Shown here in pieces: positions 4,375 through 16,414 of a stretch of 64,000 nucleotides of DNA. The stretch's first letter is position 1, and each line of letters begins with the position of its first letter. A model generated the notes under the pieces. That model did no database searches. It was not told the DNA's origin and saw only the letters and a list, made by a program, of their open reading frames with translations. The position numbers and the translations under genes were made by a program. The DNA is taken from positions 3,162,001-3,226,000 of the forward strand of contig NZ_CP046535.1 in NCBI RefSeq assembly GCF_009739515.1, written 5' to 3'. This DNA comes from Sphingomonas profundi. Lineage in GTDB: Bacteria > Pseudomonadota > Alphaproteobacteria > Sphingomonadales > Sphingomonadaceae.

Positions 4375-6519
4375 ATGTTCCAGGCACTGGGCGGCGCGCT
4401 GCGGCGGCATCTGCCGATGCAGTATGTGCTGCCGATCATCCTCCTGCTGGGCAGCAGCTTCGGGTGTCTGCTGGCGCTGCTGATCCACACCACGATCGTG
4501 CAGGACCGCATGGAGCGGGTGCGCGAGCTGGATCTCGTGCGCAACGCCTTCGCCGGCTCGGCGGAACTGATGATGCACGATCTGCAGGATTACGCCCGCT
4601 GGGACGATGCCGTCCGCCACCTCGTCCAGCGGCTGGACGCCGGCTGGGCGGACGACAATATCAGCATCTATCTCGGCACCGTGCAGGGCTATTCGCACGT
4701 GCTGGTGCTCGACGAGTCCGGCCGGGTGATCTACGCCTTCGAAGGCAGCAGGCGCGGCCGTCCCGGCTTCGATGCGACGCGCCTGCTGGGCGGCGGCTTC
4801 GTCGCGGCGGTGCAGCGGCTGCGCGCGATCGGCCCGTCGCGCGATCCGATCGTCAGCGGCTACACCCGCTCCGGCAGGACCATCTACGCCTTCTCCGCCG
4901 CCTCGATCATCCCGCTGACCGACAAGGTGACGCTGCCGGCCGGGCCGACGCGCACGCTGGTGGTCGCCCGCCGGCTCGATCAGGCCATGCTCGACACGCT
5001 GGCGCAGGGCGATCATTCGCCGCGGCTCAGCCTGGTGGAGCGGCCGGGCGCGGGCGTTTCCCTGGCCCTCGCCGGCTTCGACGGCAGCCATCTCGGCTGG
5101 ATCACCTGGCAGGCGGTGGCGCCGGGTACGGAGCTGCGGCACAACGTGCTGCCCGGCTTCGCCGTCGTCGCGCTGATCGCCCTCGCCGCGGCCGCCGTTA
5201 TCCTGCTGCGTGCGCGTCGCGGGCTGGAGGCGCTGCGCCAGAGCGAGGCGAACGCGCTGCGCGCCGCCATCCACGATCCCCTCACGGCGCTGGGCAACCG
5301 CCGCGCGATGGTCGAGCGGCTGGAGGCGATCACCGGCCCGGCGGTGCTGCTCTACATGGATCTGGACGGCTTCAAGGAGACCAACGACGTCTACGGCCAC
5401 GCCGCCGGCGATGCGCTGCTGGTGGAGGCCGCGCGGCGGATCGCCGCCGCCGCGCCGGAGGCCGATCTGGTCGCCCGATCCGGCGGCGACGAGTTCGCCG
5501 TGGTGCTCGCCACGCCGGGGCCTGACGGCCTGACCGACGTCACCGAGGCGATCCGCGCCGCCTTCAGCACGCCGTTCGCCATCGGCGGCTACAGCGTGTC
5601 GGCCGGCATCAGCGTCGGCTCGGCCGAGACGGACGGCGGGTGCGCCGCCGCCGAGCTGATCCGCCGCGCCGATGTCGCGATGTACGCGGCCAAGGCCAGC
5701 GGCAAGAATTGCTGGTGCGCCTACGATCCGGCGATGGACGAGGAGCATCACGAGCGTCGCCGGCTGGAGAGCGATCTGCGCGTCGCCATCGAGCGCGGCC
5801 AGATCGGCGTCGAGTTCCAGCCGATCGTCGACGCGGCGGGCGACGTCGTCTGCGTCGAGGCGCTGGCGCGCTGGTCGCACCCGCGCCACGGCGCGATCTC
5901 GCCGGACATCTTCGTGCGCGTGGCGGAGCGGAGCGGCCTGATCAACGGTCTCGGCCGCAGCGTGCTGACCACCGCCTGCCGCGCGGCGCTGCACTGGGGC
6001 GTCGATCTGGCGGTCAACCTCTCGCCGGCGCAATTCTGGGATCGCACCCTCGTCGCCCGCATCGCCGCCGTCCTCGCCGAAACCGGCTATCCGGCCGGCC
6101 GGCTGGAGCTGGAGATCACCGAGAGCTATCTGCTGCGCCGGCCCGACGCGGCCGAGCTGATCCTGCGCCAGCTGCGCGATCTCGGCATCGGCATCGCGCT
6201 CGACGATTTCGGCACCGGCTTCGCCAGCATCGGCTATCTGCGGCGGCTGAGCTTCGATCGGATCAAGATCGACCGCTCCTTCGTCACCCACGTCGCCGAG
6301 GATGCGCGATCGGCCGACATGGCCCGCGCGATCGTCGCCCTGGCCGAGGCGCTCGATCTCTCCGTCACGGCCGAGGGCATCGAGACGGAGGCGCAGGCGG
6401 CGATCATGCGGGTGATCGGCTGCACCCGCCTGCAGGGCTGGCTGTTCGGCCGGCCGATGCCCGCGCGGACGATGGCCGACTGGCTCGAGGAGGCGCGGCA
6501 GGTCGGCATCCGAGGCTGA
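4375..6519 (+). CDS. Membrane-bound GGDEF/EAL cyclic-di-GMP protein with CHASE4-like sensor
   Basis: Domain order is an N-terminal membrane helix, a periplasmic CHASE4-like sensor (contains [11 protein letters not shown]), a second helix near residue 265, GGDEF, then EAL. The cyclase motif is intact (SGGDEF). The phosphodiesterase motifs are also present: EAL within [19 protein letters not shown] and AEGIET. The protein may therefore make or break cyclic-di-GMP, with net activity unknown. The start at 4375 is chosen because GGAGA lies just upstream; earlier in-frame TTG and ATG codons lack a ribosome site. A motility or biofilm role fits the flagellar genes elsewhere in the window, but that link is inference. 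Confidence 0.93.
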
Positions 6520-6598
6520 TTTCGCGGCTCCCTTCCCCCGGTCGCGCCCCCTTGCTATGGCCCGGCGGAGTCTCGCATCCATCAAGGGGGAAGCCGCC

Positions 6599-9283
<2,685 letters not shown>

Positions 9284-11714: not shown

Positions 11715-11872
11715 GAGCGTCTCGACATCCAGCTTTTGCATGTCCGCTCATTTTGAGGAGGGGCTGAGCGGCGGCGGAGACCCGTCTCGACAATCTCGAT
11801 GGCTCCTCGGGATAAGCGCTTTGCCTAAGGCAAGTGCAACTGGCTTGATCCGCTCAATGTCGATCCGGCCTA
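11715..11872. repeat. MITE-like nested inverted repeat, copy 2 (inverted relative to copy 1)
   Basis: The reverse complement aligns with 2721-2907: the TAGGCCGGATCGACATT end (plus-strand 11855-11872), CGGATCAAGCCAGTT, GAGGAGCCATCGAG, and CTCAGCCCCTCCTCA leading into GAGCGGACATGCAAAA. The outer end near 11715-11730 and the central palindrome are eroded, so it looks older than copy 1. The last three bases of the intact end form the TAG stop of the lipoyl-domain gene. It fills most of the 283-bp gap between two minus-strand genes. Confidence 0.7.
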
Positions 11873-12166
11873 GCCGATCCGGAAGTCCGCCGGCAGCATC
11901 GCGCCGTCGCCGTCCAGCGGCTCGTCGGCCGCGTCGCTCAGCAGCGCCAGGCCGCCGCCCAGCGGGCACCACTCGCCCTCGGCGCAGTCGATCCGGCGGA
12001 TCACGCCGGCCTGCTCGGCGCGCACCTCGATCAGCGCCTTGTGGGTCTCCAGCTCGACGATCATCGCGCCCGGCGCCACCGCCGTGCCCGCCGCGCCGTG
12101 CCATTCCAGCACGCGCACCGATGTCACGTCCTCCAGCGTATCGGGCACGGCGAGGCGGTAGATCAT
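11870..12166 (-). CDS. Free-standing biotin/lipoyl-domain protein
   Basis: A 98-residue protein made almost entirely of one biotinyl/lipoyl carrier domain. The hairpin lysine is in ETHKALIEV (Lys43), in the position of the modified lysine of E2 or BCCP domains (usual form E-T/S-D/H-K-A). The ATG at 12166 has AGGAGG upstream and overlaps the preceding gene as ATGA. No E1, E3, carboxylase or ligase gene is adjacent, so the acyl or carboxyl partner is unknown. The TAG stop is contributed by the end of the repeat at 11715-11872. It is the last gene of a four-gene coupled operon. Confidence 0.75.
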   Translation of the reverse strand: MIYRLAVPDTLEDVTSVRVLEWHGAAGTAVAPGAMIVELETHKALIEVRAEQAGVIRRIDCAEGEWCPLGGGLALLSDAADEPLDGDGAMLPADFRIG

Positions 12167-12801
12167 CGCCCTCCTCTCGCGCCGGCCGCCTTCGCGCGCA
12201 AGCGGCGATCGACGATGCCGGCGATCGCGTGGAGGTCGCCATGCCGCGCCAGCGCCCGCTCCTGCCGGTCGGCCGGCACCATCGCGTCCAGCCCGCCGGC
12301 GAGCAGGGCCGAGACGATCACGTGCGCCGCCACCTCGTCCGCCGCCGGCCCGCCGAGCCGATAGTCGGTCTGCAAGCGCGCCGCGCCGAACAGCGAGAGC
12401 ACGCGATCCACGTCGATCACCGCCAGCCCCAGCGCGTGCGAGAGCTCGACGGCGCGCAGGTTCAGCGCGCGGATACGCGGCATCAGCGCCGGCCGCGCGG
12501 CGCGATCGGCGACGACGCGCAGCAGCGTGCAGAGCAGCACGGCCGCCCCGGCCTCCGTTAGTCGCGCCAGCCCGGCGGCCAGCGCCGCCGCATCCTCGCC
12601 GCCGTCCAGCGCCGCCCGCATCGTCGCGATCACGATCGAGGGTGGGGGCGTCGGCGGCGCCTCGTCGCCCACCGCCCGCAGCGTCACGGGCCAGGGCGGC
12701 TCGCCGGGGTCGGCCAGCGCCTCGCCCAGCTGCTCGGCCGCGGCGATCAGCAGCGGCCGGTCGGCGGCCGCGATGCGGATGCCCAGCAGCAGCGGCGTCA
12801 C
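12163..12801 (-). CDS. SGNH-like protein lacking the catalytic His
   Basis: 212 residues from a GTG at 12801 that overlaps the upstream glycosyltransferase stop as GTGA. The C-terminal half resembles the second SGNH-like protein of this cluster: RALNLRAVELSHALG followed by VIDVDRVL parallels RRFNLGLIDLSRDTG and VDVDAIV. In the block V position, where the sister protein has DPLHL, this one has DYRLG, so the Asp is kept but the catalytic His is lost. It may be a non-catalytic paralogue or partner. The function is unknown; it is placed by similarity within the cluster and gene coupling. Confidence 0.6.
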   Translation of the reverse strand: MTPLLLGIRIAAADRPLLIAAAEQLGEALADPGEPPWPVTLRAVGDEAPPTPPPSIVIATMRAALDGGEDAAALAAGLARLTEAGAAVLLCTLLRVVADRAARPALMPRIRALNLRAVELSHALGLAVIDVDRVLSLFGAARLQTDYRLGGPAADEVAAHVIVSALLAGGLDAMVPADRQERALARHGDLHAIAGIVDRRLRAKAAGARGGR

Positions 12802-13712
12802 GCGCGGTCCGCCAGATCGGCCAGCGATGCGGGGCCGGTGCCGTCCGCCAGCCCGCGCCAGAACGCCATGAGCGGCGCCAGCGGGGCCGCCGGGTGGCGC
12901 CGGCGGAACGCCGCCTCCCAGCCACGCTCCACCAGCGGATCGCGCCAGCCGCTGCGATGCGTCATGTGGTAGGTCCGCGCGCCCTCCGCCGGCAGCAGGC
13001 GCAGGCCGCGCTGCATCAGCCGCAGCGCCAGCTCGCGATGCTCGTTGATGTCCAGCGCGGGATCGAAGCCGCCCGCCGCGAGGAAGTCGCCGCGGGGCAC
13101 GGAGAAGTTGCTGCCGCTCGCCGCCGCCCACAGCAGCGGGCAGTCCGGCGTGTGGCGCAGCGCCGCCAGCTCCGCCTCGTGCAGCCGGCGCGGCGCGGCG
13201 CCGGGATAGATGCCGGGCGCCGCGCGCCGCGCGATCGCGGCGAAATCATGCCGCACCTGCGCCTCCGTCACCCCCATCCGCGCCACCTCCTCGGCCGGCA
13301 TGGCGGCGATGCGGCCGACCTGATCGGGCCACGGCACCAGCCGTTCGGGATCGGCCAGGAAGCGCGTGCAGCGCAGGTGCCACGTCTCGCCGCGCGCCAT
13401 CGCCGCCGGCCGGCCGGCGTGCGCCGCCCGATGCGCCCCGGCCAGGCCCGGCCCCGCCAGCGTATCGCCATCCAGGAACAGCAGCACGTCGCCGCGCGCC
13501 GCCGCCGCCCCCGCATTCGCCGCCGCCGACCGGCCCAGCGCCGCCGCGTGGCGCACCGATCGCACGCCCGCCGCCGCGATCACCGCGGCCGTCGCGTCGA
13601 CGGACCCGTCGTCCACCACCACCACCTCGTCCGCCTGCCCCGCCAGCGAGGCGAGCGTCAGCCGCAGCCGCGGCGCCTCGTCGCGCGAGCGGACGACGAC
13701 GCTCAGCCGCAA
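12798..13712 (-). CDS. Family 2 glycosyltransferase
   Basis: About 304 residues with a GT-A fold: LRLSVVVRSRDEAPRL at the N terminus, EVVVVDDGSVDAT for nucleotide-sugar binding, and LFLDGDT as the DXD metal site. A C-terminal acceptor region contains DINEHRELALRL. The start is probably the TTG at 13712, which overlaps the upstream SGNH stop by 10 bases; no in-frame ATG lies near the conserved N terminus. It is cytosolic, with no membrane segments. Donor and acceptor are unknown. The surrounding SGNH, lipoyl-domain and transglutaminase-like genes suggest a surface or secreted glycoconjugate, which is inference. Confidence 0.8.
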   Translation of the reverse strand: MRLSVVVRSRDEAPRLRLTLASLAGQADEVVVVDDGSVDATAAVIAAAGVRSVRHAAALGRSAAANAGAAAARGDVLLFLDGDTLAGPGLAGAHRAAHAGRPAAMARGETWHLRCTRFLADPERLVPWPDQVGRIAAMPAEEVARMGVTEAQVRHDFAAIARRAAPGIYPGAAPRRLHEAELAALRHTPDCPLLWAAASGSNFSVPRGDFLAAGGFDPALDINEHRELALRLMQRGLRLLPAEGARTYHMTHRSGWRDPLVERGWEAAFRRRHPAAPLAPLMAFWRGLADGTGPASLADLADRA

Positions 13713-14494
13713 GCCGCATCCCCCAGGCAGCCGAGATCGTCCAGCACGCGCACCACCTCCTCGGCCACCAGCCGGCAGCCCTCCGCTGTCAGGTGCAGCG
13801 GATCGAGCGTCATCCGCCCCGCGCCCTCCCGCGCCACGATCGCATCGACGTCCACGATCGATAGGCCGGTGTCGCGCGAAAGATCGATCAGGCCAAGGTT
13901 GAACCGGCGGATGCGCGTCGCCAGGGTCTCGGCCAAGCCGGAATGATCGTGGATCCACTCGCCCGCCACCGCCGCCGGCACGGTGTAGACCAAGATGGGC
14001 GCCGCCGACATGCGCCGCAGCCGCGCCACCACCGCCGCCAGATGCCACATCGCCTGCTCGGCCGACAGCGGATCCTCGGCGATGAAATGCTCCGCCAGCC
14101 AGCGCCGCCGCTCCGCCGGCCAACGCTCGTAGCCGTCGGGATAAAAGAGGTAGCCATCGGCGCGGTGCCGCGCGAGGACCGTCATCAGATCGGGCTGGAG
14201 CGACAGGATCACGGCATCGTGCGCGGCATCGAACAAAGCGGCGGAGAACTGGCTGGACAGCGGATAGGCGGATGGCGGCAGGTCCACCGCCGCCAGCGCC
14301 GCCGGCACCGCGCCGTCCGCTGCCCGCAGCGCGTCCGATCGCGTCGCCGTCTCGTGCCGCACATGGGCGCTGATGCCGCGTGGGCGCAGCAGCTGGTTGA
14401 TCCCGTTCCAGCGCAGCACGCCATCCTCGCGGCAGGCCACCAGCGTGTCGCGCAGGTCCAGATTGCCCTTGGCGAACAGCCTCAGCCGGCGCAT
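13703..14494 (-). CDS. SGNH/GDSL hydrolase-like protein
   Basis: A 263-residue cytosolic-looking protein. The N-terminal MRRLRLFAKGNLDLRDTL occupies the block I position, though the usual GDS is replaced by GNLD. The C-terminal DPLHLTAEG gives the block V Asp/His pair (about residues 231-234). The ATG at 14494 has GGGAGG eight bases upstream. It is the first gene of the minus-strand operon and lies only 26 bp from the divergent glycosyltransferase. Such proteins often act as acetyl-esterases or transferases on sugars, but the altered block I makes activity uncertain. Confidence 0.7.
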   Translation of the reverse strand: MRRLRLFAKGNLDLRDTLVACREDGVLRWNGINQLLRPRGISAHVRHETATRSDALRAADGAVPAALAAVDLPPSAYPLSSQFSAALFDAAHDAVILSLQPDLMTVLARHRADGYLFYPDGYERWPAERRRWLAEHFIAEDPLSAEQAMWHLAAVVARLRRMSAAPILVYTVPAAVAGEWIHDHSGLAETLATRIRRFNLGLIDLSRDTGLSIVDVDAIVAREGAGRMTLDPLHLTAEGCRLVAEEVVRVLDDLGCLGDAACG

Positions 14495-14520
14495 CGGCAG
14501 CACCTCCCCCGGATCGCCCG

Positions 14521-15312
14521 ATGAGCCAGCCGACCGTCACCTGCCTCACCGTCACCCGCGCCACGGCGGAGCGGCTGCCGCGCCTGCGCGCCAGCATCGC
14601 CGCGTTCGACCGGCAGAGCTGGCCGCTGCGCCGGCTGGTGATCGTGGTGGATGGCGCCGCAGGCGGCGATGCGGCGGCGGTGCGGGCGATGATCGCCGGG
14701 CGCGCCGACGCCACCCTGCTGCTGCCGCCGGCCGGACTGCCGCTGGGCGCGCTGCGCAACCTCGCCTGGGACGCGGCGACCGGCGACCACGTCTGCCAGT
14801 GGGACGATGACGACCTGCACCACCCCGGTCGCATCGCCGCGCAGCTGGTCGCGCTCGGCGATGCCGACGCCGTCGCCCTGGCGGAGGTGCTGCACCTGTT
14901 CGAGGACGAGGCGAGCCTCTACTGGACGCAGTGGGCGGCGACGCCGGTCGGCGCCCATCCCGGCACCCTGCTGTGCCGCCGCACCGCCGCTGTGCGCTAT
15001 CCCGAGAGCGGCGCGGCGTCGCATATCGGCGAGGACACCGCCGTCGCGCTGGTGCTGCGCGCGCGCGGGGCGCTCGCCACGCTCGCCGGCGCGCCGCATC
15101 TCTATGTCTATGTCGCGCACGGCGCGAATGTCAGCGCGATGGCCCATCACCGGATGCTCGCCCAGACGCTCGGCCTTTCGCAAGGGCTGATGCGCCGGCG
15201 CGAGCGGGCGATCCGCGCGATGCTGGCGGATACGGATCTCGGCCCCGGACCGATCGTGGCGCGCGGGCCGAACGGCGCGGCCTTCACGCTGGCGCCCGAT
15301 CCGGCGCGGTGA
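14521..15312 (+). CDS. Family 2 glycosyltransferase, divergent from the SGNH operon
   Basis: A 263-residue GT-A protein: TVTCLTVTRATAERLPRL, RRLVIVVDGA, LGALRNLAW, and QWDDDDLHHP as the DXD metal and nucleotide-sugar site. A catalytic-base candidate lies in HIGEDTAVAL. It is soluble. It is the only plus-strand gene of the cluster, with just 26 bp to the divergent SGNH gene. Its last 29 bases overlap the 3' end of the convergent transglutaminase-like gene. Different in sequence from the minus-strand glycosyltransferase. Substrates unknown. Confidence 0.82.
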   Translation: MSQPTVTCLTVTRATAERLPRLRASIAAFDRQSWPLRRLVIVVDGAAGGDAAAVRAMIAGRADATLLLPPAGLPLGALRNLAWDAATGDHVCQWDDDDLHHPGRIAAQLVALGDADAVALAEVLHLFEDEASLYWTQWAATPVGAHPGTLLCRRTAAVRYPESGAASHIGEDTAVALVLRARGALATLAGAPHLYVYVAHGANVSAMAHHRMLAQTLGLSQGLMRRRERAIRAMLADTDLGPGPIVARGPNGAAFTLAPDPAR

Positions 15313-16414
15313 CGCTGATGCGGTCGCGATAGATCGAATCGCCGTCGAGCCCGCAATGATCGATCTCCACGCCGCCGTCCGCCACCGCCCGCGCGATGCG
15401 GTGATGCGCGGCCGGCAGGGCGAGGCTCATCGGCCCGGTGAAGATGTCCGGCAGCACCTCCGTCCGCAGCCGGTGGTCGACGGTGCCGGCGAAGATGTCG
15501 CGCCAGCCGGCATCGCTGCCGCCGGCGGAGAGATCCCACGCCAGCAGGTCGAACGGCCGCCACCCGTCCAGCCAGACCTCGCACCACATATGCCGGCTTG
15601 GGCGCGACCAGAGCAGATAGCCGCCCACCAGCCGCGCCGGCACGCCCCGCGCGCGGCACAGGGCGACGAGCAGGGCCGCGCCGAGCTGGCAATCGTACCA
15701 GCCGCAGGCGAGGACATGGTCGGTCGCGGGGCCGGCGATCGCTTCATAGGCCAGGATGCCGCAGGCGAAGCGATCGATCAGATGCGCGCGGAACGCCGCG
15801 ACCGCCGCACGATCGTCGGCGATCGTGCCGGCCAGCGCCGCCGCCAGCGCTCGGACCGGCGGCGTCACCTGCACCAGCCCCTCAACGGGGGCGAGCCAGC
15901 GGGCGCGATCCTGCGCGGAGAGCGGGGTGGCGTCGATCGCCGCCGGATCGCTGGCTATATCCGCCGTCCAGCCGGCCTCCAGCCAAGGTGGCGCACCGCC
16001 CGCCGGGCGCAGCTCGATCCGCCCCGGCGCCTGCGTCACCGTGCAGCCCGGCGCCGATAGGGCGAGGATCATGTCCGCCGCGATCGGGCGGGGCAGGCGC
16101 AGCCGCACGCCGGCGCGGCCGGCCAGCGGCGACAGCGCGAACCGGCGCGTGAAGCGTATGCGGAACCGCCGGGGCGTGGATGCGGGCCAGCCGGCCAGCG
16201 CCCGGCCGGTCGCGACGAAGCGGTCGCGCCACGCCGGCTCCCGCCCAGCCAGCCCCTCGGCAATCACCCGGTTGACCGTCTCGGCCGGATCGAACCGGGG
16301 CCCGTCCGCCGCCTGCGCGAAGGGCAGGCCGCGAGAAGCCAGCCGATCCAGCAGCGCCGCCGGCGCGCCGCCGCCAAGGTCCGCCTTCAGCCCCCAGCCG
16401 TACAGCGCCAGCAT
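15284..16414 (-). CDS. Transglutaminase-like cysteine protease-fold protein
   Basis: About 376 residues from the ATG at 16414. A GTG at 16423 is possible; a longer frame to 16600 would run into the preceding gene. The C-terminal half carries the transglutaminase-like triad: Cys in WYDCQLGAALL (about residue 238), His in SRHMWCEVW (about 273) and Asp in FDLLAWDL (about 290). The N-terminal part is of unknown fold. No signal peptide was seen. Members of this fold act as proteases, amidases or cross-linking enzymes. Its place beside two glycosyltransferases and SGNH proteins suggests peptide or glycan-peptide processing, which is inference. Confidence 0.75.
   Translation of the reverse strand: MLALYGWGLKADLGGGAPAALLDRLASRGLPFAQAADGPRFDPAETVNRVIAEGLAGREPAWRDRFVATGRALAGWPASTPRRFRIRFTRRFALSPLAGRAGVRLRLPRPIAADMILALSAPGCTVTQAPGRIELRPAGGAPPWLEAGWTADIASDPAAIDATPLSAQDRARWLAPVEGLVQVTPPVRALAAALAGTIADDRAAVAAFRAHLIDRFACGILAYEAIAGPATDHVLACGWYDCQLGAALLVALCRARGVPARLVGGYLLWSRPSRHMWCEVWLDGWRPFDLLAWDLSAGGSDAGWRDIFAGTVDHRLRTEVLPDIFTGPMSLALPAAHHRIARAVADGGVEIDHCGLDGDSIYRDRISVTAPDRAPA

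Follow-up and report, generated by a model that had tools for sequence, protein, structure and literature searches.

Positions 11870-16414 of a 64,000-nucleotide stretch of the Sphingomonas profundi genome (contig NZ_CP046535.1, positions 3,162,001 to 3,226,000), the whole of which is called the window here, hold six genes that combine a free-standing lipoyl carrier (lip) with two SGNH-type proteins (sgA and sgB), two glycosyltransferases (gt1 and gt2) and a transglutaminase-like protein (tg). The first-pass annotation had singled out this set as a compact cluster fitting no familiar pathway, and the six genes are present as it described them (Table 1). Its account of the junctions was also borne out: on the minus strand sgA and gt1 overlap by 10 bp, gt1 and sgB by GTGA, and sgB and lip by ATGA, while sgA and gt2 diverge across 26 bp and gt2 and tg converge with a 3' overlap of 29 bp. 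Two further genes belong to the conserved set, sgC for a third SGNH-type protein and lip2 for a lipoyl-like protein without the lysine.

Table 1. Genes of the cluster, in window coordinates, with Pfam matches as bits/cut-off.
Gene	Product	Coordinates	Strand	Length (aa)	Pfam
lip	stand-alone lipoyl carrier	11870-12166	-	98	PF00364 (36.6/22.1)
sgB	SGNH-like paralog without DxxH block, probably non-catalytic	12163-12801	-	212	PF13472, below cut-off (14.3/32.9)
gt1	GT2-family glycosyltransferase, TTG start	12798-13712	-	304	PF00535 (68/23.3)
sgA	SGNH-fold protein, ATG start	13703-14494	-	263	PF13472, below cut-off (23.3/32.9)
gt2	second GT2-family glycosyltransferase	14521-15312	+	263	PF00535 (33.8/23.3)
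tg	transglutaminase-like protein	15284-16414	-	376	PF01841 (47.4/23)

None of the six window proteins has an NCBIfam family above its cut-off. The G+C content of the cluster genes, 0.71-0.78, is mostly above the window mean of 0.717 (standard deviation 0.035; 47 gene-finder genes longer than 150 aa).

Their conservation shows the six genes to be a real unit. One cluster (L031) of genome G758, which belongs to another family, contains an ortholog of each, so the ground on which the annotation would have given up the system, a failure of the genes to co-occur elsewhere, falls away. That cluster begins with a ligase with weak PaaK-type matches, lip2 and sgC; on the strand opposite to sgC follow lip, E1-beta, E1-alpha, sgB, gt1 and sgA, and then tg (+) and gt2 (-). 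From the window to L031, tblastn identity is 59% for lip, 44% for sgB (133 aa), 61% for gt1, 54% for sgA, 52% for gt2 and 41% for tg. Genome G880, from the genus of G758, keeps four of the six (sgA, tg, gt2 and a gt1 truncated where the contig stops; locus L041). Four are likewise held by a Novosphingobium metagenome-assembled genome (MAG; G1226) over two contigs, with sgA, E1-alpha, E1-beta, lip, lip2 and gt1 at L012 and sgC adjoining sgB at L062; the gt2 search did not extend to its other contigs.

The convergent pair of tg and gt2 is inverted between loci, gt2 adjoining sgA in the window and tg adjoining it in L031 and L041, and a 3' overlap is kept in all three (34 bp in L031 and 16 bp in L041). 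At E 1e-5 the flanking DUF885, DUF481 and PdeM proteins match nothing in L012, L031, L041 or L062, and with these three tested flanks unmatched in the relatives, the limits first drawn around the cluster coincide with the conserved part.

A survey of neighbourhoods across Sphingomonadales, which the annotation had proposed, shows the set to be rare: besides the genome of S. profundi, the family sample has an sgA match in 0 of its 198 genomes and the order sample in 0 of 395. The whole-genome samples include that genome and overlap one another; sgA-like matches number 1 in 199 for the family and 1 in 396 for the order (S. profundi in both), 3 in 385 for the class (S. profundi, G758 and G734), 2 in 10 for the order of G758 (G758 and G880) and 4 in 398 for the phylum (S. 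profundi and three weak ones). Two other genomes of the genus, within the family sample, have no sgA match. A scan of genome contigs for sgA (36 candidate stretches) gave one relative, the Novosphingobium contig L012, and a search for sgC in 385 genomes of the class found it in S. profundi and G758 only. The gene set is, on these comparisons, rare, scattered and conserved.

Several candidate carriers and origins were set aside. The G734 match to the sgA profile is an FkbH protein, and the weak profile matches in G1033, G849 and G1113 have no partner cluster by tblastn. A phage origin is rejected, with sgA unmatched in 50,697 phage records and no IMG/VR relative confirmed (two alignments; 14 and 22 candidate stretches), and so is a plasmid origin, with a single distant sgA match; plasmid records hold no match for gt1 (E 1e-15), nor for tg or the L031 sgC (E 1e-3). 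In G1033, from another class of the same phylum, about 2 kb separate a weak SGNH match and a GT2 match (L042:8483-11243).

The annotation had been puzzled by a lipoyl carrier with no E1 component beside it. This is true of the window, where sgB overlaps lip directly and none of the six proteins is an E1, and it is not general. In both relatives where lip was read, L012 and L031, it follows a dedicated E1-alpha and E1-beta, the genes overlapping or close. The L012 proteins belong to PF00676 (E1-alpha) and PF02779/PF02780 (E1-beta), and in L031 E1 models are matched by E1-beta in Pfam and by both proteins in NCBIfam, there under the cut-offs. The missing E1 is therefore peculiar to the genome of S. 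profundi, and the puzzle is answered. We read its absence as a loss in that lineage, with gain in the other two as the alternative. In G880 no E1-beta match exceeds 42%, in a genome 78% complete whose cluster contig ends inside gt1.

The cluster E1 proteins form a group of their own. In an E1-beta tree of 12 proteins, the two from the clusters are split from the other ten, five of them from S. profundi, by a branch with 100/100 support; the tree was midpoint-rooted and used 12 of 16 matches, G000:2382784, G758:C83, G758:C12 and G1226:C419 being left out (G000 is the S. profundi genome). Both cluster E1-alphas (L031:10939-11871 and L012:1770-2726) keep the GDG...NN pattern of the thiamine pyrophosphate site, and both read R-S-I-G where the five aligned E1-alphas of S. 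profundi, of six, read R-x-H-G; this change may mark an altered active site. Against plasmid records the L031 E1-alpha has 203 matches, all below 60% identity, and the 30 listed are dehydrogenase E1 or similar proteins, or unannotated. Elsewhere in the S. profundi genome, an E1-alpha/beta pair at L024:8460-10520 (G000:C1 3.980-3.982 Mb) has no PF00364 match nearby; one may speculate that it could serve lip from a distance.

The carrier itself has 53% identity to its counterpart in L012 and 56% to that in L031. It has a lipoyl domain (PF00364) with the lipoyl-lysine motif E-L-E-T-H-K-A, in which Lys43, the predicted site of lipoylation, is invariant in 3/3. Its nearest library models are of the SucB and AcoC types, far under their cut-offs, and its nearest solved chains are E2 lipoyl domains. 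No E2 catalytic core was found among the six window proteins, the L012 proteins and the 7 of 11 L031 proteins scanned with Pfam, and the carriers measure just 98-101 aa; no E3 was found among the cluster proteins scanned, with no E3 search of the genomes beyond these. Use of lip by a carboxylase or the glycine-cleavage system was considered and rejected, as no such partner occurs among the cluster proteins scanned and the library models nearest to lip are those of SucB and AcoC.

Where lip has its lipoyl-lysine turn, the second lipoyl-like protein, lip2, has an H-D-C-P-P loop in its three copies outside Planktothrix, and a lip2 alignment that also takes in the Planktothrix protein matches the lip profile (hhalign, 97.4%). 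In S. profundi it is paired with sgC near 2.97 Mb of C1, about 200 kb from the window cluster (L022:9951-11656; G000:C1 ~2.972-2.974 Mb); the sgC frame is open, as is that of lip2, with a plausible GTG start by eye. The pair adjoins genes resembling those for propionyl-CoA carboxylase, methylmalonyl-CoA epimerase and methylmalonyl-CoA mutase (by eye, from protein starts).

The three SGNH-type proteins are related to one another, sgB and sgC both aligning to sgA (hhalign, 96.8% and 98.7%), and none has a HAD domain match. A structure model of sgA matches SGNH folds, and it is of low confidence, with a mean predicted local distance difference test (pLDDT) of 54.6. Against solved SGNH structures its best Foldseek E-value is 6.2e-4, the one match at E <=0.001; comparison with VIA gives Z 10.6 over 157 residues at 2.8 Å, and the structural matches include PatB and OatA. 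These matches of a weak model, together with an L031 ortholog just above the PF13472 cut-off (33.6), place sgA in the SGNH fold. The sgC model (mean pLDDT 49.2; best Foldseek E 4.4e-3) is too weak for use. In sequence searches of PDB, sgA had 0 matches and sgC 10, all at E 0.075 or worse; the sgC alignment matches the lipoyl profile at only 0.6% in hhalign, and an N-terminal lipoyl-like fold is not claimed for it.

The catalytic residues separate the three paralogs. Conserved at 53-55% identity in L012, L031 and L041, sgA keeps D231-x-x-H234 in 4/4 sequences and reads G-N-L-D at the GDSL position, with neither Ser nor Cys there (4/4; block I by eye). In sgC, a G-x-C-E block and D421-x-x-H424 occur in 3/3, with Cys where Ser is usual. 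The statement that sgB lacks the catalytic His was confirmed: the DxxH block is missing in 3/3 orthologs (36% and 37% identical in L062 and L031), with TDY in its place, and block I is not recognised. Judged by block I and DxxH, none of the three therefore shows the usual catalytic set, as sgA has no Ser, sgC has Cys and sgB has no DxxH.

Among the remaining genes, gt1 has tblastn identities of 58% to L012, 61% to L031 and 62% to L041 (over 195 aa, to the contig end), and gt2 has orthologs at 52% in L031 and 47% in L041. The tg orthologs are 41% (L031) and 40% (L041) identical, and C242, H275 and D289, a triad assigned by motif, are invariant in 3/3. Near the MAG cluster, a putative amidoligase of the DUF2126 type, in fusion with transglutaminase domains, is encoded at L012:7302-9845; it is a weak, domain-level match of tg (E 3e-4).

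More distant relatives were found for sgA in two settings. At E 1e-3 a single plasmid record matches it, p3 of Planktothrix agardhii (29% over 67% of the query, with E 3e-17), where a methyltransferase-SGNH fusion, a lipoyl-like protein and an SGNH-like domain fused to TPRs are encoded consecutively (L026:12226-17241), adjoining AMP-binding, acyl carrier protein (ACP) and flavin (halogenase-like fragment) genes. The lipoyl-like protein matches PF00364 below the cut-off (E 0.0031) and lip by hhalign (86%), and the SGNH relative has a weak FkbH_N match (E 0.049). From this one record, the pairing of SGNH and lipoyl-like proteins is not confined to the class of S. profundi, and the thioester source beside it looks like an ACP. 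In addition, sgA resembles the FkbH-N region of a protein at locus L032 (hhalign, 90%). That locus (L032:7956-13575) holds genes for a methyltransferase, a small ACP-like protein and the FkbH protein beside genes resembling an acylation pair of the MBOAT type (both the ACP and the MBOAT assignment by eye).

Within the window but away from the cluster, a 950-codon open frame (6404-9256) runs antisense to a long plus-strand gene (6557-9283, aconitase-like by eye) and is probably an artefact of G+C richness.

What the sequences show is the gene set, its conservation, the E1 genes beside the carrier in two relatives and the motifs; on these a pathway can be outlined in which the lipoylation of lip, the acyl group, the direction of transfer, the order of steps and the glycan acceptor are what we infer. 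We tentatively propose, at somewhat less than an even chance, a conserved and scattered pathway of glycoconjugate tailoring, its acyl groups drawn from a 2-oxo acid. In its complete form, a dedicated thiamine-diphosphate E1 (alpha and beta) would decarboxylate the 2-oxo acid and reductively acylate the lipoyl-lysine of lip, and downstream of lip the three SGNH paralogs would replace the E2 core. With its Cys at the nucleophile position and its DxxH, sgC would be the likely acyltransferase, sgA and sgB being likely carrier- or acceptor-binding partners and lip2 possibly assisting. The two GT2 enzymes would build the sugar acceptor, and tg may use the same thioester to form an amide. In S. profundi, lip would have to be charged by another E1 or by another route. 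Of the acyl or sugar transfer onto a carrier or surface polymer first suggested for the locus, acyl transfer on a carrier with glycosyltransferases still appears the best outline. The available parts of two published accounts, on OctT (PMC4555173) and on Plm8/Plm9 (PMC4802897), offer precedents that count in favour of acyl transfer to a glycoconjugate.

Several observations weigh against this proposal. The best conserved SGNH protein, sgA, has no nucleophile at the usual place, and block I of both sgA and sgC was placed by eye, within low-confidence parts of the models. For the L012 E1-alpha the S. profundi genome has seven matches (six strong, the best at 37%), and for the L031 E1-beta it has six, at 40-43% where the MAG cluster gene reaches 68%; an E1 ortholog elsewhere in this genome was accordingly rejected, and with no close counterpart a complete relay starting from a dedicated E1 cannot operate in S. 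profundi. The product is not pointed to by any gene for an acceptor, for export or for regulation, no tg ortholog was found in the Novosphingobium MAG, and the carriers of the set found are just four genomes (S. profundi, G758, G880 and the MAG), two of them from one genus.

A bolder version would make this a new route of acyl activation, running from a dedicated E1 through a free lipoyl carrier to an SGNH trio of one Cys-type enzyme and two non-canonical partners, with the HDCPP-loop lip2, and on to a glycan, in place of acyl-CoA or acyl-ACP, with the SGNH/lipoyl-like pair as an ancient module served also by ACP-type donors in cyanobacteria; we regard it as doubtful.

The E1 pair also admits a different chemistry, in which it would add the two-carbon unit of pyruvate to a keto-sugar, the glycosyltransferases would transfer the branched sugar, and lip and the SGNH proteins would be accessory. 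E1-alpha/beta-like pairs are assigned such C2-branching in the available accounts of paulomycin (PMC4802897) and avilamycin (PMC4753412), and the role is hypothesised for everninomicin (PMC10338323); two GT2 genes in the cluster would suit it. On the other side, lip stands directly behind E1 in both relatives, which points to oxidative acyl transfer, and the word 'lipoyl' occurs 0 times in the available text of the paulomycin article. No nucleoside diphosphate sugar or deoxysugar gene occurs among the cluster proteins scanned, with no search elsewhere in the genomes; the end of a UDP-sugar dehydrogenase-like gene lies by L062 only (by eye). We hold a branched-sugar pathway to be unlikely.

Less probable again is a nonribosomal or hybrid metabolite, for which tg would amidate a carrier thioester, the glycosyltransferases would decorate the product and the SGNH proteins would act as thioesterase-like release or editing factors. 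Transglutaminase-like AdmF of andrimid makes an amide from a carrier thioester, and the Cys-His-Asp of tg is kept in its 3/3 orthologs; the ligase beside the G758 cluster, its PaaK-type matches all under the cut-offs, and the AMP-binding and ACP genes that neighbour the SGNH proteins in Planktothrix lean the same way. Against it, the proteins read from the L012, L031 and window clusters include no nonribosomal peptide synthetase, polyketide synthase or ACP, the G758 ligase has no match in the S. profundi genome or the MAG, and the MAG lacks a detected tg.

With equally small probability, the window cluster might be a decaying remnant that has lost its E1 and been parted from lip2 and sgC, leaving six genes with no current pathway or with glycosyl transfer alone. 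The want of a close E1 in this genome and the distance of some 200 kb to lip2 and sgC would fit such decay, to which six open frames with tight junctions, the retention of Lys43 and of the tg residues, and the open frames of sgC and lip2 are opposed. Small gene overlaps are common in compact genomes and the G+C content of the cluster lies around the window mean, but chance packing of unrelated genes in a GC-rich genome has practically no probability left, refuted as it is by the conserved G758 cluster, which unites all six orthologs in another family while the three tested flanking genes are not shared.

Acyl groups bound to lipoyl are familiar from central metabolism, in which the E2 core hands them on to CoA. 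If the proposed tailoring of a glycoconjugate is right, it would open a new link between the oxidation of 2-oxo acids and surface or secondary glycoconjugates. The cluster would also provide a test bed for FkbH-N-like SGNH domains, which occur here without HAD, as three paralogs and with lipoyl-type carriers. Searches of the open-access literature yielded no description of the gene set or of the route.

With the 2-oxo acid dehydrogenase complexes (pyruvate, branched-chain 2-oxo acid and acetoin dehydrogenases) the system shares an E1-alpha/E1-beta pair and a lipoyl domain. It departs from them in its free single-domain carrier with no E2 core in the scanned cluster proteins, in its SGNH, GT2 and transglutaminase-like partners and in the R-S-I-G of its E1-alphas. 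The sugar-branching pairs AviB1/AviB2, Plm8/Plm9 and EvdU5/EvdS3 likewise stand alongside glycosyltransferases, but the available parts of their descriptions include no lipoyl carrier or SGNH trio, and no deoxysugar genes occur among the cluster proteins scanned here. FkbH enzymes (PF21211), which according to the available text load glyceryl groups on ACPs (PMC7489565), have an FkbH_N region that sgA resembles; the L032 protein continues into a HAD domain, whereas no FkbH_N followed by HAD is found in sgA, sgB or sgC, and the carrier here is of the lipoyl type, not an ACP. The SGNH sugar acyltransferases (OctT, PatB, OatA and AT3-SGNH proteins) have the SGNH fold in common with the trio. OctT, an SGNH-family enzyme, adds acyl groups to an early precursor of an intracellular polysaccharide and, in the available part of its description (PMC4555173), has a Ser triad and was assayed with acyl-CoA donors, in contrast to the Cys of sgC, the lack of either residue in sgA and the missing DxxH of sgB. 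Folds at the level of superfamilies apart, each known kind that was decisively tested has one or more defining features that the cluster lacks.

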